Positions 38,867 to 52,324 of a stretch of DNA of 64,000 nucleotides are shown in pieces. The notes beneath the pieces are model-generated. The model was not told the origin of the DNA. It searched no databases and was given only the letters and a program-made list of their open reading frames with translations. Source of the DNA: Candidatus Poribacteria bacterium (lineage in GTDB: Bacteria; Poribacteria; WGA-4E; PCPOR2b); assembly GCA_028819845.1 (NCBI GenBank), contig JAPPKS010000012.1, forward strand, positions 186,001-250,000. Reading direction: 5' to 3'. Position numbers and translations under genes: made by a program. The stretch's first letter is position 1; each line of letters begins with the position of its first letter.

Positions 38867-40381
38867 CTAAGATTCTAACTTTATCCTTAGCCCTTTTGAT
38901 ACAACGCCGCGTTCCGCCAATTCAAACAACCCTTGAACGAGAAGCGCTAATACAGCCGCGGGGACGGCGCCCTCAAGTATGAGTCCGATATCGTCTTTGC
39001 GGATTCCGGTTAGAATTGGTTGTCCGAATCCTCCCGCGCCAATTAACGCGCCGAGGGTTGCGAAACCCACGTTTATGACAGCAGAAGTCTTGATGCCTGC
39101 GAGGATTGCCCGCGATGCCATCGGTAGTTCAACAAGCCAAAGACGGCTAAGCGGCGGCAGCCCGAGGGCTGATGCAGATTCTCGGACTGGGGAGGGGATG
39201 TCATGGAGCCCGGCATATGTGTTCCGAATAATTGGGAGCAGACTATACAAAAAGAGCGCAGCAATCGCCGGCGGGGCTTTAATGCCTAAGAGCGGAATCA
39301 TAAAGACGAGCAGTGCAAGTGCCGGAATGGTCTGGATAATGCCGGCGATTCCTAAAATAGCTTGTCCAACCCGTCCATGACGTGCTGCTAATATGCCCAG
39401 AGGAATAGATATAAGAATTGCCGGCGTAAGTGAAATACATACAAGGAAGAGGTGGGCTAGTGTATTTTTGAGCAAGCGTTCAAGCATTGTTTCATCGTAT
39501 ACTTGAGTTTCAAGCGAAAGGAAGGCCGCCAGGAAGTCAGCTGCAACACGATTTTCAGGAACTTTGTCTAATTTCGCACGGGCATTCATTTTGACCATTT
39601 GCGCTTCGGGGATAAAGTCCTCCAGCTTTAGCAGCGCAGACACGACTTTCGGTGCCCTTACTTCCAAATCGTCCCGATACAGCAGCACCGCATAGTATTT
39701 GGGGAAAAGGTTTTCATCGTCCTCCAAAACCCTCAAGTTATAATACTGAATTTCTGCGTCCGTCGAATATAGGTCTGTCGCGTGGATTGAGCCGCTCTCC
39801 AGTCCGCGGTATGCGAGATCGTGGTCGAGGCCACGCACGTCCTGATGAGGCAAGCTATAACGATGGCGTAGGGCGGGCCAACCGTCGGAACGGTCCATGA
39901 ATTCACTTGTGAATCCAAACTGAAAGTCAGGATGACGCCGTAAATCTGAAATTTTAGTGACATTGTGCTCTGCTGCCACCCTCTCTTTCATACCAATTGC
40001 GTACGTGTTGTTAAAACCGAGGGGGCGGCTCATGCGGATCCCTTTCGCTTCAAGTGCATCTCGAATCTCTTCTTCACTGCTTAACTCCGTGCCTGAAAGA
40101 ATTTCGTGGCTAATAGTCCCGGTATATTCAGGATAAACGTCAATGTCCCCCCGCAGCAACGCCTTCCACAACACCTGTGTCCCGCCCAATTCTTTTTCAT
40201 GCACGGCTTTAGCCCCGGCACTCTGCGTCAACAACGCAAAGAGTTCACCGAGAATAACCGATTCGGTGAATTTCTTTGAACCGACCTTTACCTCTGTCAT
40301 CTGCCTGGTATTTTGGCATGCATTCAACATCAGTACAGTCCAAACAGCCGCTAGGAGTGGAATCAATTGCCGCAATCTCAT
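38867..40381 (-). CDS. Fused substrate-binding/permease subunit of an EgtU/OpuC-type importer
   Basis: 504 residues. A lipoprotein-like signal ends in LNACQ. An OsmF/EgtU-type binding domain (about 30-295) follows, with VGSKKFTESVILGELFALL and GDIDVYPEYTGT. A membrane domain then has several helices and the permease loop ESASALGLPPLSRLWLVELP. In known EgtU and OpuBC-like fusions the membrane part comes first; here the binding part comes first. The start overlaps the end of the ATPase gene by 4 bases. Members import quaternary amines such as glycine betaine, choline or ergothioneine. Confidence 0.85.
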   Translation of the reverse strand: MRLRQLIPLLAAVWTVLMLNACQNTRQMTEVKVGSKKFTESVILGELFALLTQSAGAKAVHEKELGGTQVLWKALLRGDIDVYPEYTGTISHEILSGTELSSEEEIRDALEAKGIRMSRPLGFNNTYAIGMKERVAAEHNVTKISDLRRHPDFQFGFTSEFMDRSDGWPALRHRYSLPHQDVRGLDHDLAYRGLESGSIHATDLYSTDAEIQYYNLRVLEDDENLFPKYYAVLLYRDDLEVRAPKVVSALLKLEDFIPEAQMVKMNARAKLDKVPENRVAADFLAAFLSLETQVYDETMLERLLKNTLAHLFLVCISLTPAILISIPLGILAARHGRVGQAILGIAGIIQTIPALALLVFMIPLLGIKAPPAIAALFLYSLLPIIRNTYAGLHDIPSPVRESASALGLPPLSRLWLVELPMASRAILAGIKTSAVINVGFATLGALIGAGGFGQPILTGIRKDDIGLILEGAVPAAVLALLVQGLFELAERGVVSKGLRIKLES

Positions 40382-41130
40382 CGGGGTGCTCCCTCAAAAA
40401 TTTCCAGCGGGTGACGCTGCGCGTTGATAAAACGTACTACGAATTCGTTTTCGGGCGAGGAATACAGTTGCTCCAACGTTCCCCGTTGGACGATTCGCCC
40501 CTCACGCATGAGGATAATATCTCGACTGAAGAACCCGGCTTCACCTATATCGTGCGTTACCATCACTACGGTTTTGCCAAGTGTTTGGAAAATTTCGGCG
40601 AGATCGGTCTGAAGCGATGCACGAACCATTGGATCTAGCGCACCAAGCGGCTCATCCAGCAACAAGACTTCAGGGTCTAACATTAACGCGCGCATTAAGC
40701 TTACACGTTGCTGCTGTCCACCGGAAAGTTCGACGGGGTATCGGCTCAAACCGTCTTCGGGAAAATGGGTCAGCGAGCAAAGTTCCTCTAATCGGTACTG
40801 AATTTCTTCCGCAGACTGATTTATATGCTTTGCCATGAGCGCAACATTCTGTGCAGCGGTCAGGTGTGGAAACAGGCCGCCATCTTGGATGACGTAACCC
40901 ATACGGCGGCGCAGTTCAAGAATGTTAGCGGGCGAAACTAGCTCACCGTTAAGCTGGACGTATCCAGTTGTGGGTTCCAGCAAGCCGACAATCAACCTCA
41001 GAATCGTAGATTTTCCGCAGCCGCTCGGTCCGATGAGTACGGTTGTCTGCCCCTCTTTGATGTTGAGATCGGTCGGGTGGAGCGCAACCACAGCTCCAAA
41101 ATGCTTACTGATGTTTTTCAACTGAATCAT
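40378..41130 (-). CDS. ABC importer ATPase, OpuCA/EgtV-like
   Basis: 250 residues: Walker A GPSGCGKS, signature LSGGQQQR, Walker B EVLLLDEPLGALDP and switch VTHDIGEAG. CBS domains that sense osmolarity in OpuCA are absent, as in EgtV and related short ATPases. It overlaps the EgtD-like gene upstream and the permease gene downstream by 4 bases each, so the three are translated as one unit. Confidence 0.9.
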   Translation of the reverse strand: MIQLKNISKHFGAVVALHPTDLNIKEGQTTVLIGPSGCGKSTILRLIVGLLEPTTGYVQLNGELVSPANILELRRRMGYVIQDGGLFPHLTAAQNVALMAKHINQSAEEIQYRLEELCSLTHFPEDGLSRYPVELSGGQQQRVSLMRALMLDPEVLLLDEPLGALDPMVRASLQTDLAEIFQTLGKTVVMVTHDIGEAGFFSRDIILMREGRIVQRGTLEQLYSSPENEFVVRFINAQRHPLEIFEGAPR

Positions 41131-42137
41131 GATGAATCCCTAAATAAACTTGTTTTCTGAAGTAAGGCGATAGCGAACCAAGCATTTTTATCCAGCCACT
41201 GCGCATGCATTTCCAGCCCGGCAGCGCGGCAAATGCCTACAAAACTTTCGATTGTATATTTGTGGCTATTCTCCGTATGGATGAACTCATCGGACTCAAA
41301 ATGGAACACCCGTTCGGACGCAGCGATATACGCAGTCTGATGCCGCCGACTGATAAGACGCATCTCAATGCGGCTGTGTGTTCCAACAAACGGCGCGGCA
41401 TGCTCAAAGTCATCAATGACAAAGGTACCTCCTAACTCGCGGTTAATTCGCACCAACACGTTCTTGTTGAATGCGGCGGTTACGCCAGCGGAATCGTTGT
41501 AGGCGGCCTCAATGACGCCGAGATATTTCAACAGATCAAAACCGACTAACAGCCTATCTTCTTGATTCATCTGATTAGCGATTCGCCCCAAGAATGCAAC
41601 CGCTTCCTCCGTTCCAAAATTCCCAATATTGCTCCCGAGAAACAGGATGAGTCGAGGGCCTTCATGGTGAGGCAAGATTGGGATGGCGTCGTTGTATTCT
41701 GCTGCAATGGCAGTTATCGACAATCGTCCGTACTCATTCAGAAGGGAAAAGGAAGCTGCACGGAGGAAATCCGAGGAAATGTCAACAGAAGTATAGTGAA
41801 GATTCTTCTGACAATTGAGGGCAGCGTTGATGAAGAGGCGCGTTTTGATGGAACTCCCGCTGCCAAATTCCACTAGCGCCAAGTTTTGCCCCACCGTATC
41901 AATCATCTCGGAGACATTGTCTTCCAAAATTTTCTGTTCGGTTCGTGTGAGGTAGTATTCCGGAAGCTTGCATATCTGCTCGAAAAGGTGGGAACCAGCC
42001 GCGTCGTAAAATAGGCGGCAAGGTAGGATTTTTTGCGGCTGCGAAAGTCCTTCAACAACCGCGTTGGTGAAATTCCTTTTCTCCTGATCTCTTGGCAGTT
42101 CAATAAAGTTGACTCCAGAGATCATATATTTTCTCAT
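41127..42137 (-). CDS. egtD: EgtD-like L-histidine N-alpha-methyltransferase
   Basis: 336 residues. Family segments appear in order: RLFYDAAGSHLFEQICKLPE, YYLTRTEQKIL, the SAM loop LVEFGSGSSIKT, LFLGSNIGNF, AAYNDSAGVTAAFN, LVRINRELGG and IHTENSHKYT near the C-terminus. The Glu and Ser of TENS correspond to residues that hold the histidine substrate in mycobacterial EgtD, and the Asn of GSNIGNF and the Tyr of AAYND also fit. EgtD trimethylates histidine to hercynine, the first step to ergothioneine. No EgtB-like sulfoxide synthase is nearby. It is the first gene of the importer operon. Confidence 0.88.
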   Translation of the reverse strand: MRKYMISGVNFIELPRDQEKRNFTNAVVEGLSQPQKILPCRLFYDAAGSHLFEQICKLPEYYLTRTEQKILEDNVSEMIDTVGQNLALVEFGSGSSIKTRLFINAALNCQKNLHYTSVDISSDFLRAASFSLLNEYGRLSITAIAAEYNDAIPILPHHEGPRLILFLGSNIGNFGTEEAVAFLGRIANQMNQEDRLLVGFDLLKYLGVIEAAYNDSAGVTAAFNKNVLVRINRELGGTFVIDDFEHAAPFVGTHSRIEMRLISRRHQTAYIAASERVFHFESDEFIHTENSHKYTIESFVGICRAAGLEMHAQWLDKNAWFAIALLQKTSLFRDSS

Positions 42138-44082: not shown

Positions 44083-47000
44083 ATGCGTACGCTAATTACG
44101 TTTTTTCTTACCGGTATTTTAAGTCTGTCTGGCATCCGCTATCCAAACCCCTTTCATGCGCAGTCAGAAGTGATAGTTGATAACTCCAACCGTGAGCATG
44201 GTGAGGTATCTGCCTCACAATTTCCTGTTAATTTACATTCTGCCTCCGAGCAGGTCATCAGTTATGACGATGTCTACGGTATTGGGATAACACTGCCCTT
44301 TGATGGAGATGTAGCAATTAGCGCATTAGAAGGCAACCGAATAATAATCAAACTCGATAAGCAAGCGATTGGGATTAATGAAGAGATTGTCCAAAGGTTT
44401 CTTGACGCCGTCAAGCTGGGAATTTCTAGGGTAGAGGACACCGTGCAAATAACACCTCAACTCCCGGACGGTTTTGAAACCGAAGCGAACTTGACGCGCA
44501 TAAACTGTCGTGTCGAAGTTCCGCCCGACATCTCGGTTAGAATCCATACGTCAAACGGCAACGTTCACGTTGGCGGGCTTCGGGGCGTTTTGAACATCGC
44601 GGCGAATGTCGGCGATATTCAGTTCAGCGAGACAATGGGACAATACCAAGTGGCTTTAACCGAAGGACGCATTTTCGGCCGTATTTTTTTGACGAAGGGG
44701 AAAAACTCCTTTGAAACACAGTCAGGCTCCATTGATCTCACCATCTTGGATTCAGTCGCAGCGCCAATGGATTTCACGGCAGTTAACGGCGGAATTCGAC
44801 TACGCTTACCGCAAAATTTCCCGGCTGACGTGGAAATCAACAATGAAAAACGTGATCGACGTACAATTTTCATTGAGGTGCCCGCAGAGATTGACCATTC
44901 CCTTACGGGCGATGTCCTGCATGGTGCGATCAACGGCGGCGGTCCGTTAATACGGTTGCACGCCAGCGATCAGGTTGCGGTTTTGGCGGGTGAATCTTCG
45001 CTTCCGGATCGGACGGAGGCAGGTGAAGACAATTTACTTAGCGATGGACTACTCCATGACGAAAACGACACCGCCACGATTCCCACTGCGGCAGTATCCA
45101 AAACCGAGGTCCCCCCAAGAATTGACGGCAATCTGTTTGAGAAAACGTGGTCGAACACTCTTTCACTGCACGACTTTTACGAAGCAGATGGAATACACCC
45201 AGCGCGGGAACCGACGCAAGTGTTTCTGATGTGGGACGATCGATTTCTTTACATAGGTGTGAGAGCCTACGACGCACAAATGGGGGAGGTGCATGTTTCC
45301 CAAAGGACTAAGGACTCGGCTGTAGGGACGGACGACTCCATTGAAATACTTGTCGATCCAAATCCACAGACACCCCTTTACTATCACCTCATTATTAATC
45401 CGATTGGGACGGTCCTCGACCAGATTGTACGATCAAACTATTCTCCAGACGCGCAAATCCCATCGGTGGACGCTGGCGAGAAACCCATGGGATTAACATC
45501 GTCGAACGGAATTGTCGATTTGCATTGGAATGCAAATGCGAATATCAAGACCGAAATCGCGTCGACCTTCTGGACCGCGGAAATTGCATTACCCCTTTCC
45601 TCACTTGAATCCGCCGCGGCGGACGACTGGCGATTAAATGTTCTACGCAAAATTCATCGCCATGATGAGTGTAGTTATTGGTCGCCGACCTACGATGTAA
45701 ACACGCCTTGGTGGCCGCATTGGCGGGAACGGATGGGGATTTTGCGTTTGGTCTCGTCTCAGTCTTCCGCATACACGGAGAACTACGAACTTGAAGAAAA
45801 ATTTGAGATTTCCGGAATTGAGGTACATGGAAATGCCGAGATTTCGACACCAGAAATTCTTCAACTCCTGCCCTATAAACGTGGTGATGTTGTCACCGCC
45901 AGCGAACTATCTTGGCTGAAAGCGGAACTTGAAATTCACGACTGGTTTCTTCAAGCGCATCTGGAAACCACAGATGCACCCTCGGAAGGCGAGGAACCGC
46001 CGACAGATTCGTCAATTAATCTCCAGCCAATCGTTTTCCAAGTGGTAATTTCAATTCGTGTGACGGAGATGCCGACACGGTATGTTCAATTAGTCAGCCT
46101 GCACAACAATAGGTTTCTTCATTCAAACGCAATTCGGGCGTTATTCGGGTTAAAAGACGGGCGCACTTCAATCCAAGAATTAGAGACGAAATGTAATCTA
46201 ATCGCAACATACTATCGTAATAGCGGTTATAACCTCGCGTGGACCGATTACCGGTTTGTTGGCGGCAATTTGCAAATTGACATTGATGAGGGACATCTGG
46301 ACGAAATTCGCTTCGTAGGAAATCGACGCATCCAAACCGACGTGCTGCTTGATGAATTTGAACTCAAACAGGGCGAAATTTATAATGAGAAACGCTGCCA
46401 ATCGCTTATTGATGAACTGGATTTAAAGCTCAATAATAACAAATCCTATGTTTCGGCGGTTAAACACTGGCAGTTGAAACAGGATGAAGACAAAAACGTG
46501 CTGGAGATAGAAGTTGAAGAACGGTCCATCGTCAATTGGGATCTGCTGCCGGTTGCCGACTTCAATCGCGTGCATGGAGTAATTCTAGGCGGGGGTGGTG
46601 AAGTACAGACGAAGGACTATGGGGGCGGACGAGTCTTCGGAAGCCTTAGTTATGGACTATCGAGCGAAACCTTGAATTTTCACTTGGGTGCGGAAAAACG
46701 CTGGTTTGACCGTCACACTGTCCGTGCCGGCGGAAGGATTCACAATCTTACGGGAACAATCCACGGTATGGCGCTTTCCCAAAGCGAAGAGCTACTCGCA
46801 TCACTTGTGGTTGGCGATGCTTACATGGATTATTACTTGCGGCGGGGTTATCAGGCTTGGTTAAAAGGCCAATTGACCCCTTTCGCAAGCATAATGCTCA
46901 GATTTGACGACGAAAGACACGAGATTCTTTTTACTTCGACGAATTGGAGTCTGTTCAATGGGAAAACACCCAAAAAAAGCAATCTGCGGATAAATGAAGG

Positions 47001-47622
47001 GCATCTCCGAAGTTTTTCGGCGTCTTTTGACTTCGATTCCCGCGATCATAAGTCGCATCTCAGCCGCAATTTCCAAGATTATCCTACTCCCAACTCCCGA
47101 ACTACCCGGGGATGGCAGGGAAATTTAGCTTTTGAATACGCCGGAAAACACCTTCAAACAGACTTCGATTTCACCCTTTACCGCTTCAATCTAACTCGCT
47201 ACAATAAATTCTCAAAAAATCACTTTTTTGACTTCCGATTGGCAGGCGGCTTCTCGGATGCCCCGTTGCCGCGTCAGCGCCAATTCTATCTAGGCGGTCT
47301 TGGAACACTGCGCGGGTACGGCTTCAGGGAATTCAGCGGCGACAATATGCTGCTTTCGAATTTGGAATACCGCTACCGCCTGTCACAGAGTAATCTCCTT
47401 GCTATTGCGGCGATGGCGTTCCTCGACACCGGATACACCTGGCATTACCGCGAACGCATGATACTGAATCGTTTCAACACGTCGATCGGCATTGGCCTGT
47501 CTCTAGGCTGGTTGAATTTGCCCGATACCGTTCAGATGGACACGGTTCGGATTGAGATTGCACGCGCTATTCGTAAATCGCGGAACGTCAACTTCATTTT
47601 GCGCCTTTCACGGATGTACTAA
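44083..47622 (+). CDS. Multidomain outer-membrane protein: DUF4097-like + CBM9-like + POTRA + Omp85 barrel
   Basis: 1179 residues. A signal peptide covers about 1-28. Residues about 50-300 form repeating beta strands like DUF4097/adhesin domains (VRIHTSNGNVHVGGLRG). Residues about 333-556 resemble carbohydrate-binding module family 9 (PPRIDGNLFEKTWSN, MWDDRFLYIGVRAYD, ending HWRERMGILRL). Residues about 575-815 contain POTRA-like repeats (IEVHGNAEISTPEILQLLPY, IRFVGNRRIQTDVLLDEFEL). Residues about 820-1179 are a beta barrel of the BamA/TamA type with the loop-6 motif GGLGTLRGYGFREF. The Omp85 end implies outer-membrane insertion or translocation; fusion of sugar-binding-like modules in front is unusual. 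It follows the aldolase gene by about 155 bases. Confidence 0.82.
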   Translation: MRTLITFFLTGILSLSGIRYPNPFHAQSEVIVDNSNREHGEVSASQFPVNLHSASEQVISYDDVYGIGITLPFDGDVAISALEGNRIIIKLDKQAIGINEEIVQRFLDAVKLGISRVEDTVQITPQLPDGFETEANLTRINCRVEVPPDISVRIHTSNGNVHVGGLRGVLNIAANVGDIQFSETMGQYQVALTEGRIFGRIFLTKGKNSFETQSGSIDLTILDSVAAPMDFTAVNGGIRLRLPQNFPADVEINNEKRDRRTIFIEVPAEIDHSLTGDVLHGAINGGGPLIRLHASDQVAVLAGESSLPDRTEAGEDNLLSDGLLHDENDTATIPTAAVSKTEVPPRIDGNLFEKTWSNTLSLHDFYEADGIHPAREPTQVFLMWDDRFLYIGVRAYDAQMGEVHVSQRTKDSAVGTDDSIEILVDPNPQTPLYYHLIINPIGTVLDQIVRSNYSPDAQIPSVDAGEKPMGLTSSNGIVDLHWNANANIKTEIASTFWTAEIALPLSSLESAAADDWRLNVLRKIHRHDECSYWSPTYDVNTPWWPHWRERMGILRLVSSQSSAYTENYELEEKFEISGIEVHGNAEISTPEILQLLPYKRGDVVTASELSWLKAELEIHDWFLQAHLETTDAPSEGEEPPTDSSINLQPIVFQVVISIRVTEMPTRYVQLVSLHNNRFLHSNAIRALFGLKDGRTSIQELETKCNLIATYYRNSGYNLAWTDYRFVGGNLQIDIDEGHLDEIRFVGNRRIQTDVLLDEFELKQGEIYNEKRCQSLIDELDLKLNNNKSYVSAVKHWQLKQDEDKNVLEIEVEERSIVNWDLLPVADFNRVHGVILGGGGEVQTKDYGGGRVFGSLSYGLSSETLNFHLGAEKRWFDRHTVRAGGRIHNLTGTIHGMALSQSEELLASLVVGDAYMDYYLRRGYQAWLKGQLTPFASIMLRFDDERHEILFTSTNWSLFNGKTPKKSNLRINEGHLRSFSASFDFDSRDHKSHLSRNFQDYPTPNSRTTRGWQGNLAFEYAGKHLQTDFDFTLYRFNLTRYNKFSKNHFFDFRLAGGFSDAPLPRQRQFYLGGLGTLRGYGFREFSGDNMLLSNLEYRYRLSQSNLLAIAAMAFLDTGYTWHYRERMILNRFNTSIGIGLSLGWLNLPDTVQMDTVRIEIARAIRKSRNVNFILRLSRMY

Positions 47623-47811
47623 AGCTGGGCTATAGCAAACTGATTCCGCGATGATTGCTTCGCAGGTTATCTGTTGATTGCATTCACGCGCCCTGAGTAT
47701 TCGTTCGAAATCCATTAATGACTCATAATGAAACGATTTGCACAATACTTAGCCCAATTCTCCCCACAAACAACCCTTCCCTTAACAAAGTGACACTTCT
47801 CTTTTATCAAA

Positions 47812-47932
47812 TTGACACATTTGTGTCTTTTTAAGACACATTTGTTTACAGTCCCAGAACCTCGCATGCGGCAAGGATTTTCACGGTTGTAGTGTACCAT
47901 TATTGCGATCTTGGGTAAACAAATGTGTCTTA
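47812..47932 (+). promoter_or_regulatory. Cluster of three related palindromes, candidate upstream activator sites
   Basis: GACACATTTGTGTC at 47814-47827 is a dyad (GACACA-TT-TGTGTC). TAAGACACATTTGTTTAC at 47832-47849 and GTAAACAAATGTGTCTTA at 47915-47932 are perfect 18-base inverted copies of each other, and each contains one GACACA half-site plus a weaker one. They sit about 135-255 bases upstream of the -12 element of the sigma-54-like promoter at 48054, a usual distance for enhancer-binding activators. An alternative reading as decayed mobile-element ends is possible. Nothing else is recognised in 47623-48050. Confidence 0.5.
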
Positions 47933-48053
47933 TTCACCCCTACCACTCGAACACTTCTTCCCCCAAATGAAAACTTTTCGACATGTCAGTATTCCTTACT
48001 ACATGAGGATTTCCAAGACATAGCATGGCTAAATTTGGAAGTAAAGTATTGAC

Positions 48054-48070
48054 TTGGCACAGGATTTGCT
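48054..48070 (+). promoter_or_regulatory. Sigma-54 (RpoN) promoter, -24/-12 type
   Basis: TTGGCACAGGATTTGCT: GG at 48056-48057 and GC at 48068-48069 with exactly 10 bases between. It matches the consensus TGGCACG-N4-TTGC(A/T) at all positions but one. Transcription would start near 48081, about 80 bases before ATG 48162. The next sigma-54-activator gene lies 2.8 kb downstream in the same direction. Confidence 0.6.
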
Positions 48071-48126
48071 AGTTTAGGATTGTCGAAGAACTCAAAGGCG
48101 CCTATTTGAGGGATGACGGTTTTCCT

Positions 48127-48147
48127 GGCGACGGTTTTGCCGTCGCC
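48127..48147 (+). other. GC-rich hairpin in the leader of the sigma-54-driven transcript
   Basis: GGCGACGG, a five-base loop TTTTG, then CCGTCGCC: a perfect 8-bp stem 15 bases before the ATG at 48162. No T-run follows, so it is not a terminator; it may affect translation or stability. Confidence 0.45.
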
Positions 48148-48161
48148 CCTCTAATGCCTTA

Positions 48162-48488
48162 ATGTCTCGGCGCCTGAATTCCCTTCGCTATGATAGTCAA
48201 AATAATGAGCCAACAAAACAGAATCTGAACAAGGCAGCATTGGGCATTGCTGCTCATGCGCCGCACCTAACAATTTACACTCTGGGAAGAGGAGGGGCTA
48301 CATTGACAACCCATAATGAAAGCCATACAAGATTTATAACAGAGAATACTGACGAATTCAATGCGCTTGTCGATGCCATCTCAGACTTGCGAAAAGCTAT
48401 TGCTGCGTACCACCATGATTTCAAAAAGAGAAAAGTAGAACTATTGGTTGAGATTGTGCGTCTTCGGGACCTTAATGCCGGACCATAG
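48162..48488 (+). CDS. Small unknown protein
   Basis: 108 residues, mixed charge. A Ser/Asn/Lys-rich N-terminus is followed by a beta-like segment (HLTIYTLGRGGATLTTH) and a long C-terminal helix likely to form a coiled coil (EFNALVDAISDLRKAIAAYHHDFKKRKVELLVEIV). No signal peptide or membrane helix, and no family recognised. The ATG has no strong ribosome site. Support comes from its place 80 bases after the sigma-54 promoter and from the coherent helix. Confidence 0.5.
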   Translation: MSRRLNSLRYDSQNNEPTKQNLNKAALGIAAHAPHLTIYTLGRGGATLTTHNESHTRFITENTDEFNALVDAISDLRKAIAAYHHDFKKRKVELLVEIVRLRDLNAGP

Positions 48489-48662
48489 TGGAGAAGTCTG
48501 CTCGCGGATGCGTTCATCAATACCCCGGCTGCAACGCATTCTGATAAATCCAATACGCCGTACTCACGCCTTGTCTTCACAAATGTGAAAACTGAAAAGA
48601 CATATTTACGAGAGTTGAAGCTTTACGCCAATCACACATTGTAAGGGCCAAATGAACTAGCT

Positions 48663-48890
48663 ATGAAAGTATTTCGCGCACTCTTTTGGTGGCATGCCGC
48701 AATAATTTACCTTGTTGTCCTAATATTGACTGGATGCAGCCAGCACAAACCCACAGAATTTCGCCCCGCGGCGGATCACCATGAGGAGGCGATTGACCTC
48801 TTGAGCGATGAAGAATGGGAGTCTTTGATGAGTTTGCCTCCCTTACCATATGCCCCGCCGCCAGACCTTACGGATTGTGATACCAAATGA
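48663..48890 (+). CDS. Small lipoprotein
   Basis: 75 residues. The basic start MKVFRALFWWH, a hydrophobic core and the lipobox ILTGCS predict lipidation at the Cys near residue 25. The mature part is about 50 residues, acidic then proline-rich (SLPPLPYAPPPDL). No known family. It lies between the small unknown protein and the histidine kinase on the same strand, so an envelope sensor or accessory role for the kinase is conceivable. Confidence 0.65.
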   Translation: MKVFRALFWWHAAIIYLVVLILTGCSQHKPTEFRPAADHHEEAIDLLSDEEWESLMSLPPLPYAPPPDLTDCDTK

Positions 48891-49060
48891 ACAAGCGTCG
48901 ACCTAGCGGTATCCTTTCGGATGGCATCTAATTATTCCCGTTTGAGTAGCTCCAATGTTACTTATTGCGTTAAGTGCTGAGTTAAATCAACGAAAACACT
49001 TGCGGCGATGGAATCTACCGATACTAAACTGCCAGTCAAAATTTTTGCGGCGAACGAAAA

Positions 49061-49104
49061 TTGACAATTTGTGAAAAAATTGTGTTACACTGTAGCAAAT
49101 TGTC
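49061..49104 (+). promoter_or_regulatory. Promoter with flanking inverted repeat before the histidine kinase
   Basis: TTGACA at 49061-49066 is followed by TACACT at 49086-49091 (19-base spacer; GTTACA would give 17). GACAATTTG (49063-49071) and its exact reverse complement CAAATTGTC (49096-49104) bracket the -10 region, an arrangement typical of an operator. In the 329-base gap 48891-49219 this is the only signal seen. Confidence 0.5.
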
Positions 49105-49219
49105 GAGAAATTGAACAATCGGGTTCGCCCAACATAGTAAGCTAAAGCTATCGGCAACAACAAATCACGTGTGTGATATTCTCGACAGAATTCTAACCAC
49201 TTGCTTCTACAGGGGAGAA

Positions 49220-50857
49220 ATGAAGGACGAGAATAAGTCGCAGGCGGAACTAATTGACGAATTACAAGAGATGCGCGAGCGTGTCATACAACTAGAACGT
49301 GAACGAGTTCAATACAAACAGATGGCACAAGCCGATCCCTACTATAACACGCCGGAGATGTTTGCATCCGTAGACACACAATCGGAGAGGGTACTGCACT
49401 GCAACGAGTCGCTTATCATGGCGTTGGGTTACACCGAATCGGAAATTGTCGGTTCGTCAATATTCAAGATGTATCATGAAGACTGCTTAGAATACGCAAA
49501 GCGGGTGTTCGCGAATCTCATAAAAACCGGCGAAATCCGCGATACCGAACTGGTTTTGCGGAAAAAAGACGGCGACATAATTGATGTAAGCTTGAGCGCT
49601 TCTACGGTCTGTGATGAAAATGGGGACCCGCTTTACAGCCGTTGTTTCTGGGCGGACATAACGGAACACAAAGAGACAGAAAGAAAACTTCGCAGGAGTG
49701 ACCTAAGCTTCCGTCAACTTGCGGAGAGTATTCGCGAGGTGTTCTGGCTGATGTCGCTGGATGGTGACGAGATATTCTACCTGAGTCCCGGGTATGAAGA
49801 CATATGGGGCAGGCCTAGTGAAGACCTCATCGCTCATCCGATGTCGTGGGTAGAGCACATTCACCCGGAGGACCGAGAGCGCGTAGTAAGCAAATTTCAA
49901 CGACGGACACAGGGGCAGTTTACAGAACCCGGCACTGAATTTCGGATTAACCGACCTGATGGATCCGTCCGCTGGATTCTTGGGCGGTCGTTTCCTGTCG
50001 AAGATGAGAACGGTAAGGTTTACCGCATGGCGGGTTTTGCACTGGACATTACGGAACGCAAACACGCCGAAGAATTGTCCGCGATGCAGCAGCAGCAGCT
50101 AATTCAAGCGGATAGAATGACCTCAATAGGGATTTTAACCGCCGGCGTAGCACACGAGATTAACAATCCGAACAATTTTATCATACTCAACGGGGAAATA
50201 CTTGAGAAGGCGTGGAACGACGTTTTACCAATTTTAGAGACGTATTGCGAGGAACACGGGGATTTCACTTGTGCGGGCATGCCGTATGCTCAAGCACGCG
50301 GGAGCATCAAAAATCTTACGGCGGGGATAATTATTGGGGCGACTCGAATTCAGAAAATAGTGAACGCCCTTGGCGATTTTGTGCAACAAGATGAGGAGAA
50401 TTTGAGTCAACTGGTGGACTGCAATGCTGTTGTTGGCTCTGCTATCGTCATTGCGGAAAACCTGATAAAGATATCGACGAACAATTTCTCGACAGACTTG
50501 CAGCCAAATCTACCGAAAATTTCGGGTAGCCGACAACAACTTGAACAGGTCTTAATTAACTTAATCTCCAATTCTTGCCAAGCGCTTTCTAATCCTAACA
50601 AGAGCGTAGTAGTTTCAACTCGGAACAGTGCCGATCAAGTAATGATTGAAGTTCGTGACGAAGGAGAAGGGATTCCGTCTGAAGATTTGCAACAGGTCAT
50701 GGGAGCCTTTTTCACCACAAAGCGTGAAACCGGCGGCACAGGTCTAGGGCTATCCGTCTCTTATAATATTATCCAGAATCACGGCGGGGATATTACCTTC
50801 AACTCCGAAATCGGAAAGGGGACGGTAGCAACCGTAACGCTGCCAGCGGTCAATTGA
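49220..50857 (+). CDS. PAS-domain sensor histidine kinase (cytoplasmic)
   Basis: About 545 residues from ATG 49220, preceded by AGGGGAG; an in-frame upstream start at 49169 lacks a site. A coiled coil at residues 8-35 is followed by two PAS/PAC domains (about 45-150 and 160-290; PAC ends SRCFWADITEHKETERKL and MAGFALDITERKHAEEL). The phosphoacceptor His309 is in TAGVAHEINNPNNF. The ATPase domain has NLISNSCQAL, DEGEGIP and TGTGLGLSVSYNIIQNHGG-like boxes. No membrane helix, so it senses an internal signal. It lies 33 bases before its likely partner regulator. Confidence 0.9.
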   Translation: MKDENKSQAELIDELQEMRERVIQLERERVQYKQMAQADPYYNTPEMFASVDTQSERVLHCNESLIMALGYTESEIVGSSIFKMYHEDCLEYAKRVFANLIKTGEIRDTELVLRKKDGDIIDVSLSASTVCDENGDPLYSRCFWADITEHKETERKLRRSDLSFRQLAESIREVFWLMSLDGDEIFYLSPGYEDIWGRPSEDLIAHPMSWVEHIHPEDRERVVSKFQRRTQGQFTEPGTEFRINRPDGSVRWILGRSFPVEDENGKVYRMAGFALDITERKHAEELSAMQQQQLIQADRMTSIGILTAGVAHEINNPNNFIILNGEILEKAWNDVLPILETYCEEHGDFTCAGMPYAQARGSIKNLTAGIIIGATRIQKIVNALGDFVQQDEENLSQLVDCNAVVGSAIVIAENLIKISTNNFSTDLQPNLPKISGSRQQLEQVLINLISNSCQALSNPNKSVVVSTRNSADQVMIEVRDEGEGIPSEDLQQVMGAFFTTKRETGGTGLGLSVSYNIIQNHGGDITFNSEIGKGTVATVTLPAVN

Positions 50858-50890
50858 TACTCGCCGCGTCTTCGATATGGAGGAAAATCC

Positions 50891-52324
50891 ATGGATACAA
50901 CGTACTACCCTAACCGTCCGATACTGCTCGTAGACGATGAAGAGCAATTTTTGTTCAGCGCAAGTTTTGCGTTGATGTCAGAGGGAATAAATCATGTCCG
51001 CAAGTGTCACGATAGCCGTGAAGTCATGTCGATACTGTCGAAAGAGGATTTCTCGGTTGTGGTACTGGATATGTTGATGCCAGGTCTTTCGGGTCGAGAC
51101 CTTCTACCGCTGATATTGGGTGAATTCCCTGAACTCCCCGTAACGGTTGTCACCGCTGAAAACAAAGTCGAAATTGCGGTAGAGTGCATGAGAACTGGCG
51201 CGTACGACTTCCTCTTAAAACCGGTGAGCAGGACCCGACTCGTTGCAACAGTCCTGCGCGGCATTGAAATTAGCGAACTGCGGCGCGAAAATCTGCGACT
51301 CAAAGACCGCCTGCTTTCGCACACGTTAGAACAGCCTGAAGCGTTCTCCGGCATTATTACGCAAGACCGATCGATGTATTCCATATTCCAGTACGTCGAG
51401 GCAATCGCCCGAACCAACCTACCAGTATTAATTACAGGGGAAACCGGTGTTGGAAAAGAACTGATTGCAGCAGCAATCCACAAGGTGAGCGGGCGGGAAG
51501 GGGCATTTGTTCCAGTCAATGTGGCGGAGCTTAATGATCATCTATTTGCGGACACGCTCTTTGGTCACCGGAAAGGGGCATATACCGGCGCAGATTCATC
51601 CCGTAAGGGGTTGATTGAGCGAGCGTCAAATGGCACGCTATTCCTTGACGAAATCGGCGACCTACGCATGGAGTCTCAAGTCAAGCTGCTTCGCCTCCTT
51701 CAAGAAGGGAAATACTACCAGCTTGGCGCAGATATTCCGAAGGCTAGTAACGCTAGAACAGTAGTCTCGACCAATCGAGACATTCAATTTCTGAGAAATA
51801 CAGAATCTTTTCGCAAAGACCTCTATTTCCGTCTGCAGACCCATCATATTCACCTTCCGCCGCTTCGTGAACGCGCAGGTGATATACCACTATTGGCTTC
51901 CCATTTCATTGATGAAGTTGCCGAGTCACTGGGTAAATCTATTCCAGCTGCGCCGCCTGAACTATTTTCCTTACTCGTAAAACACCGTTTCCCGGGAAAC
52001 ATCAGGGAACTTCAAGGTATGGTTTTGGATGCCGTCAGCCGACACAAAGGCGGAAGCCTTTCTATTCAGTCGTTCCAAGAAAAAATTAACTACAAATCTT
52101 CAGATTCTAGCGGCAACGGGGAATCAGCCGAAAATGTATTTGCAGACGGGTTGTCTACGCTGCCTCAATTGCCATCCTTGAAAGCTACCGAACAGCTTAT
52201 GATTGATGAAGCCCTGAAGCGCGCCAATGGAAATCAGACCGTTGCCGCAAAAATATTGGGTATGTCAAGACAAGCGCTGCACAACCGTCTAGCCCGCGCT
52301 CGGTCTTCAGCCAACGACGTGTGA
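50891..52324 (+). CDS. NtrC-type sigma-54-dependent response regulator
   Basis: 477 residues. The receiver domain (about 10-125) has the phosphorylation site D60 in VVVLDMLMPG and the conserved Lys in FLLKPVS. The AAA+ domain has Walker A GETGVGKE near 185, the sigma-54 contact loop GAYTGA (usual GAFTGA, Phe to Tyr) and Walker B TLFLDEIGDL. The C-terminal Fis-type HTH is QTVAAKILGMSRQALHNRL. All parts needed to activate RpoN promoters are present. The candidate target is the -24/-12 promoter at 48054. Confidence 0.92.
   Translation: MDTTYYPNRPILLVDDEEQFLFSASFALMSEGINHVRKCHDSREVMSILSKEDFSVVVLDMLMPGLSGRDLLPLILGEFPELPVTVVTAENKVEIAVECMRTGAYDFLLKPVSRTRLVATVLRGIEISELRRENLRLKDRLLSHTLEQPEAFSGIITQDRSMYSIFQYVEAIARTNLPVLITGETGVGKELIAAAIHKVSGREGAFVPVNVAELNDHLFADTLFGHRKGAYTGADSSRKGLIERASNGTLFLDEIGDLRMESQVKLLRLLQEGKYYQLGADIPKASNARTVVSTNRDIQFLRNTESFRKDLYFRLQTHHIHLPPLRERAGDIPLLASHFIDEVAESLGKSIPAAPPELFSLLVKHRFPGNIRELQGMVLDAVSRHKGGSLSIQSFQEKINYKSSDSSGNGESAENVFADGLSTLPQLPSLKATEQLMIDEALKRANGNQTVAAKILGMSRQALHNRLARARSSANDV

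Follow-up and report, generated by a model that had tools for sequence, protein, structure and literature searches.

A conserved toastrack-CBM9-POTRA-Omp85 protein of Candidatus Poribacteria: domain order, relatives and possible roles

A 64-kb stretch of a Candidatus Poribacteria genome (contig JAPPKS010000012.1; this whole stretch is called the window below) carries at positions 44083-47622 (+) a single open reading frame with an ATG start and 1179 codons, as seen in the list of open reading frames and the translation. The encoded protein of 1179 amino acids is composed of a signal peptide, a toastrack domain, a family 9 carbohydrate-binding module (CBM9), three POTRA domains and an Omp85-type barrel, a layout supported by Pfam and by near full-length orthologues. 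The combination is genuine and conserved, and it seems not to have been described before. In anatomical terms there is good support for an Omp85 barrel that bears a periplasmic head for reading glycan or envelope. The mechanism that we favour, somewhat short of an even chance, is that of an outer-membrane scaffold or sensor of the periplasmic envelope.

Domain order and predicted fold

The N terminus (residues ~1-26, 44083..44160; this and all following features lie on the + strand) has the character of a Sec-type signal peptide in the translation, with a helix at residues 2-15 in the AlphaFold model, and is probably cleaved between PFHA and QSE. Because this signal contains no Cys, there is no sign of a lipoprotein. 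The toastrack domain, a DUF4097-like right-handed beta-helix, spans residues ~49-302 (44227..44988). In the window protein its Pfam match (DUF4097, PF13349; residues 153-252, E-value 0.0013, 18.6 bits) stayed under the cut-off of 22.9 bits, but the same model passed in orthologues, with 38.6 bits at locus L065 and 27.6 bits at L051; orthologues also matched LiaG/LiaX models in profile searches. The CBM9 domain, for which the sequence-only reading of this DNA had proposed residues 333-556 or so, was found at residues ~334-558 (45082..45756), where CBM9_1 (PF06452) matched residues 347-435 above its cut-off (6.3e-6, 26.6 bits vs 23.4). The three POTRA domains lie at residues ~573-662 (45799..46068), ~663-735 (46069..46287) and ~736-813 (46288..46521). 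POTRA (PF07244) matched in three stretches (3e-15, 57.1 bits vs 21.3), the last of them at 740-814, and the AlphaFold secondary structure agrees for all three, while the first two also gave profile matches to BamA POTRAs. The barrel occupies residues 817-1179 (46531..47619), ends in an aromatic residue (...SRMY) and matched both Omp85 (PF01103; 1.6e-12, 48 bits vs 24) and ShlB (3e-7, 30.6 bits vs 22.7). Its LRGY motif at residues 1076-1079 (47308..47319), conserved throughout the family as GGxxTLRGY, stands at what we take to be the place of the Omp85 loop-6 VRGF/Y signature.

The orthologue at L065 showed the same domain order with DUF4097 at 1e-9, CBM9_1 at 1.6e-10, POTRA at 8e-18 and Omp85 at 1.4e-17, and divergent orthologues reached 7e-20 for POTRA and 5e-18 for Omp85, far stronger than the window protein. 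Since deep orthologues score above the cut-offs in the same order, doubt about the domains of the window protein is removed. Comparison of profiles with known structures gave CBM9-2 of TmXyn10A (1I82) for the CBM9 part at 1.3e-9, BamA for the POTRA part at 1e-29 and TamA for the barrel at 6e-10.

The full-length AlphaFold model was built from 49 aligned sequences (mean predicted local distance difference test score, pLDDT, 79.8) and shows a beta-helix at 49-302, a beta-sandwich at 334-558, three POTRAs at 573-813 and a barrel at 817-1179; the placement of these domains relative to one another is uncertain because the predicted template modelling score (pTM) was 0.51. The model aligned to TamA and BamA across POTRA plus barrel, with Z ~20-23 to the SAM50, BamA and TamA barrels. 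As the full-length fold search mostly covered POTRA and barrel, the N-terminal half was folded (mean pLDDT 84.5) and searched alone. Its toastrack part matched the DUF4097-type putative adhesins 3PET, 3LJY and 4OPW at Z 13-14. Across the searches with the full-length and the N-terminal model, the CBM9 part matched the CBM9 structures 1I82, 7NWN and 4JPQ at Z ~19-21.8 over 174-196 residues (1I82, Z 19.7 over 174 residues in model range 334-558; 4JPQ, Z 21.8), and in the N-terminal half folded alone it also resembled 2IVF_C (Z 14.0) and the cytochrome domains of cellobiose dehydrogenases (Z ~8). Pfam, profile-to-PDB and AlphaFold/fold searches thus agree on the domains and on the order that had been read from the sequence, and we hold the domain content and order with high confidence.

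The putative ligand site of the CBM9 domain differs between the family and the window protein. TmCBM9-2 clamps its sugar between Trp71 and Trp175 (PMC8280721). The column aligned with Trp71 is covered by 48 sequences; 47 of them have Trp there and the window protein has Gly415 (codon GGG, 45325..45327), as established from the column count, the hidden Markov model alignment to 1I82 and the DNA. The family keeps both Trp415 and Glu421, the latter aligned with the Glu six residues after Trp71 in TmCBM9-2. Trp533, a candidate counterpart of the second clamp residue Trp175, is invariant among the CBM9-bearing sequences. Judged from the position aligned with Trp71, sugar binding is plausible for the CBM9 of the family and doubtful for that of the window protein itself.

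Spread and natural variants in Poribacteria

To follow the family, 85 Candidatus Poribacteria genomes were searched at a match threshold of 1e-30. A match was obtained in 77 of them, and a strong, full- or near-full-length homologue in 73; this last count excludes the eight genomes without a match, three with short forms and one with a barrel paralogue only. One poribacterial family of six genomes had no homologue in this search, and a contig scan with the single window sequence as query found no relative. The long form is also present in single-contig chromosomes, and the fusion is therefore not an assembly artefact; a join of two genes, which the sequence-only reading had raised as a danger to its own proposal, is ruled out by recurrence in many independent assemblies. 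The architecture that this reading wished to see in other genomes is thus widespread in the phylum. It was not found outside it in a two-pattern contig scan and in 395 genomes of one phylum, which yielded barrel matches only; these were limited searches, and presence elsewhere is possible. Four non-Poribacteria genomes contained CBM9 or the barrel, but apart.

Two kinds of variants are informative on what the family retains. In one poribacterial family (f4), three genomes encode a form of 649-687 amino acids in which the toastrack is joined to the barrel without CBM9 or POTRA. In the barrel tree these short forms nest inside the long forms of the order (support 99/95 and 98/92), so that the CBM9-POTRA block between toastrack and barrel was probably lost. 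Another genome (G062) has a form of 1011 amino acids with a degenerate CBM9. From these variants, toastrack and barrel look like the core, and CBM9 plus POTRA like an accessory block, though a widely kept one; glycan reading would accordingly not be the one indispensable activity. Conservation is alike in the C-terminal part of the toastrack (0.43), the CBM9 (0.41) and the barrel (0.41). Tail to tail with an f4 short toastrack-Omp85 gene, a protein of 2220 amino acids with cadherin/Big_9 repeats and a FlgD_ig/CHU_C-type tail is encoded (L061:99-6761), and a protein of 2129 amino acids stands at the equivalent position of a second locus (L062).

Relatives, recurrent CBM9 gain and gene neighbourhood

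We then asked which kind of Omp85 protein this is. In the barrel tree the window protein grouped with Poribacteria DUF4252-Omp85 proteins and with POTRA-less barrels of Bacteroidota, apart from the genome's own BamA-type proteins (100/99); the trees are midpoint-rooted with some long branches, so that the order of gain and loss is not fully settled. The nearest barrel relatives found outside the phylum are bactofilin-like or DUF5686-related Bacteroidota proteins (E-values down to 2e-59) with a short N terminus or bactofilin-like repeats and no POTRA. Because these and the DUF4252 relatives group with it, the stable partner of the barrel appears to be a periplasmic domain, often a beta-helix, and not POTRA. 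The protein scored 62.7 bits against BamA (TIGR03303; equivalog cut-off 297) and 36.7 bits against TamA (NF047950; cut-off 625). The genome encodes four other Omp85 proteins, of 916 amino acids (six POTRA stretches), 792 amino acids (five), 636 amino acids (three) and a WD40-like one, and its only TamB match adjoins the first of these, not the window gene. A canonical BamA or TamA is ruled out by the equivalog cut-offs, the barrel trees and the separate proteins of these types in the genome. Membership in TpsB/FhaC did not follow either, with POTRA_2 at 16 bits against a cut-off of 24, though the score of the ShlB barrel model is above its threshold; the neighbourhood annotation, which included no specific search for TpsA, named no such partner among the adjoining genes. 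A Pfam scan of the window protein showed no patatin match, as PlpD and type Vd proteins would have, and DUF5686 (PF18939) reached 21.9 bits against 39.2, though the barrel tree places the protein with such proteins.

A second poribacterial family also combines CBM9 with an Omp85 barrel. DUF4252-CBM9-Omp85 proteins of 822-861 amino acids occur in nine sampled genomes (L152, L165-L169, L171, L173 and L174). Upstream of them, at sufficiently complete loci, lie genes sized and placed like those of an extracytoplasmic function (ECF) sigma factor and a zf-HC2 anti-sigma factor, and in many cases a DUF4252 gene as well; these identities come from Pfam at L165 and partly at L152, and from size and position elsewhere. 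Such ECF sigma/anti-sigma/DUF4252 operons are an envelope-signalling context. In the CBM9 tree the two CBM9 groups are separate, and the DUF4252-type CBM9 is closest to that of the adjacent CBM9-DUF5916 gene (100/99), which indicates that fusions of CBM9 to Omp85 barrels arose on at least two occasions. Among the arguments for a useful pairing, this recurrence is the strongest. CBM9-DUF5916 proteins are also encoded in the window's own genome (L153 and L154). In a genome from the phylum of G087, a CBM9-DUF5916 barrel gene (L207:5375-8206, 943 amino acids) adjoins a bactofilin-type Omp85 barrel gene, an echo of L165. PA14-domain proteins are encoded between or beside tandem DUF4252-Omp85 genes at L151, L172, L178 and L180.

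The window gene itself had no conserved operon partner across families. Its neighbours are housekeeping genes that depend on the family (adenylate kinase, GcvT, TRAP components, transporters), and as they change between families, the gene stands alone. The neighbourhood comparison likewise found no conserved polysaccharide synthesis, export, uptake or SusC/D-like genes beside it. The ~1.5 kb downstream of the gene (47623-49168) contain no frame above 108 amino acids and no Rfam match, and no Rfam family was found anywhere in the window. At 38867-42137 (-), a histidine-specific methyltransferase gene (EgtD-like, PF10017) adjoins genes for an OpuAC-permease fusion and an ABC ATPase. These genes may serve to take up or make a betaine compound or a trimethylated histidine.

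Possible roles and comparison with known systems

Under the scaffold/sensor proposal, the protein would be exported by Sec and its C-terminal barrel (817-1179) inserted into the outer membrane, with the three POTRAs, CBM9 and toastrack hanging into the periplasm. CBM9 might dock on a periplasmic glycan (lipopolysaccharide core, intermediates of capsule or other exopolysaccharides, or incoming oligosaccharides), while the broad beta-sheet faces of the toastrack would be offered to partner proteins. The barrel would anchor and position the assembly, possibly with a change of state upon glycan binding or a changed envelope condition. We place the head in the periplasm because of the topology of POTRA domains and by analogy with PlpD, for which a periplasmic N-terminal domain has been demonstrated (PMC11116518). 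The earlier prediction of a polymer-reading module on the periplasmic side of an outer-membrane barrel is supported in this sense, while the glycan ligand, partner docking and signalling are, like the periplasmic side, inferred. Toastrack domains are part of envelope-stress (Lia/Psp) systems, and a role in assembling signalling complexes has been proposed for them (PMC11237479). Together with the toastrack and barrel retained in the f4 forms and the ECF operons of the sister family, this link to envelope stress suggests, by analogy, a scaffold or sensor.

Several points weigh on the other side. The POTRAs are kept in most members (mean identity 0.32-0.34), which fits substrate handling, and the window member lacks what is likely the sugar-stacking Trp at 415. 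The toastrack survey predicts a cytoplasmic toastrack in other proteins (PMC11237479), so that what they do there may not hold for a periplasmic toastrack. No sigma/anti-sigma gene lies beside the window gene; a PAS histidine kinase and a sigma-54 response regulator are encoded downstream (49169-52324, +) and are not conserved there in relatives.

The main rival, which we consider somewhat unlikely, is a lineage-specific TamA/BamA-like factor for assembly or translocation of particular outer-membrane or surface proteins, in which the POTRAs would hold the substrate and CBM9 plus toastrack would retain clients that are glycosylated or bound to glycan, or would fasten the protein to periplasmic glycan. 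It is favoured by three POTRAs as in TamA, by the BamA and TamA profile matches and model alignments above, and by the usual Omp85 role in protein assembly and translocation, the conservative guess for new subfamilies according to a 2014 Omp85 survey (PMC4104836). However, BamA-type proteins are separately encoded in the genome, one of them beside TamB; the closest Bacteroidota barrels have no POTRA and the f4 members lost theirs; and no conserved client gene adjoins. A type Vd-like autotransporter, whose barrel would pass a toastrack-CBM9 passenger to the cell surface to bind external or host glycans, appears distinctly improbable. PlpD-type proteins have the same passenger-POTRA-barrel order, a passenger that is adhesin-like and binds carbohydrate would suit surface use, and Poribacteria are known largely from sponges (PMC3909097), but the PlpD passenger itself stays periplasmic (PMC11116518), a cargo of two beta domains and three POTRAs, all folded, is a poor one, no cleavage site is evident, and the f4 forms lack POTRA.

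Two further ideas are very improbable. One is the glycan-linked export or uptake device of the sequence-only reading, in which CBM9 would feed or read polysaccharide passing through the barrel. Besides CBM9 itself, the fusion of CBM9 to another outer-membrane barrel type, DUF5916, in the window's genome speaks for it; however, Omp85 barrels serve in protein assembly, in translocation or as scaffolds and are not known as sugar channels, and with the loop-6 motif LRGY kept, no conserved polysaccharide or SusC/D-like genes adjoining, the CBM9-POTRA block dropped in f4 and Trp415 lost here, transport of glycans through the barrel is not supported. The other, a CBM9-like fold that reads haem or a different ligand, in the manner of DOMON cytochromes or of the ethylbenzene dehydrogenase gamma subunit, would fit the shared fold group (2IVF_C and cellobiose dehydrogenase cytochrome domains) and the missing Trp at 415, but sugar-binding CBM9s match better (Z 19-21) and the family keeps Trp415 and Glu421.

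Export of other surface proteins was also considered. In the window's own genome the Por secretion tail (PF18962) was matched 35 times, for example on G000 contigs C11, C20 and C31 and in many cases in frames of 500-1300 amino acids, as would fit a type IX-like route that works. A study from 2014 had reported no structural genes for Por secretion in Poribacteria (PMC3909097). We found SprA-like type IX translocon proteins of 2188 amino acids (L190:2439-9005, G000 contig C12) and 2201 amino acids (L191:2541-9146) with TIGR04189 matches of 5e-47 and 5e-51, which stay under the 200-bit cut-off of that model, and PF14349 matches in 79 of the 85 genomes. Because the phylum has such translocon genes, the candidate role of the window's Omp85 family as exporter of Por-tail proteins is weakened.

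A bolder extension of the scaffold/sensor proposal, rather unlikely in our judgement, is a new class of outer-membrane receptor, in which an Omp85 barrel would serve as a glycan-reading, envelope-stress-linked sensor instead of a protein assembler, built at least twice in Poribacteria by setting CBM9 together with a domain associated with stress, either toastrack or DUF4252, before a divergent barrel. Together with the f4 variant and the second family with its separate CBM9 gain, an Omp85 family that spans the phylum and carries domains of glycan-binding and envelope-stress type would be a concrete system in which to ask what other tasks the Omp85 scaffold can perform, and by what means these uncultured bacteria watch over or construct their envelope.

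Omp85 proteins are usually regarded as protein insertases or translocases, with PlpD as a recent exception. Our literature search found no paper on Omp85 with carbohydrate binding, with Poribacteria or with bactofilin. The text of the 2014 survey, which gives ten subfamilies for the Omp85/TpsB superfamily, mentions neither Poribacteria nor any carbohydrate domain (PMC4104836). With the members of this superfamily (BamA, TamA, FhaC, PlpD) the window protein shares POTRA followed by an Omp85 barrel, the LRGY motif and the C-terminal aromatic residue, but it differs in the toastrack and CBM9 ahead of POTRA and in a barrel outside the BamA group. PlpD has the same plan of an additional N-terminal domain, periplasmic in its case, POTRA and barrel, with one POTRA and a patatin domain in place of three POTRAs and non-enzymatic beta domains. 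The bactofilin-like/DUF5686-related barrels of Bacteroidota are kin by their barrel, and some carry other beta-helix repeats N-terminally; unlike in the window protein, no POTRA, CBM9 or toastrack was detected in them. LiaG and LiaX share the toastrack, but are Gram-positive envelope-stress proteins without POTRA or barrel. CBM9-DUF5916 proteins also place CBM9 ahead of a predicted outer-membrane barrel, which matches DUF5916 and not Omp85. Finally, the DUF4252-CBM9-Omp85 proteins share a small periplasmic-type domain, CBM9 and a related Omp85 barrel, and differ in having DUF4252 for toastrack, a CBM9 of separate origin and an ECF sigma/anti-sigma operon.

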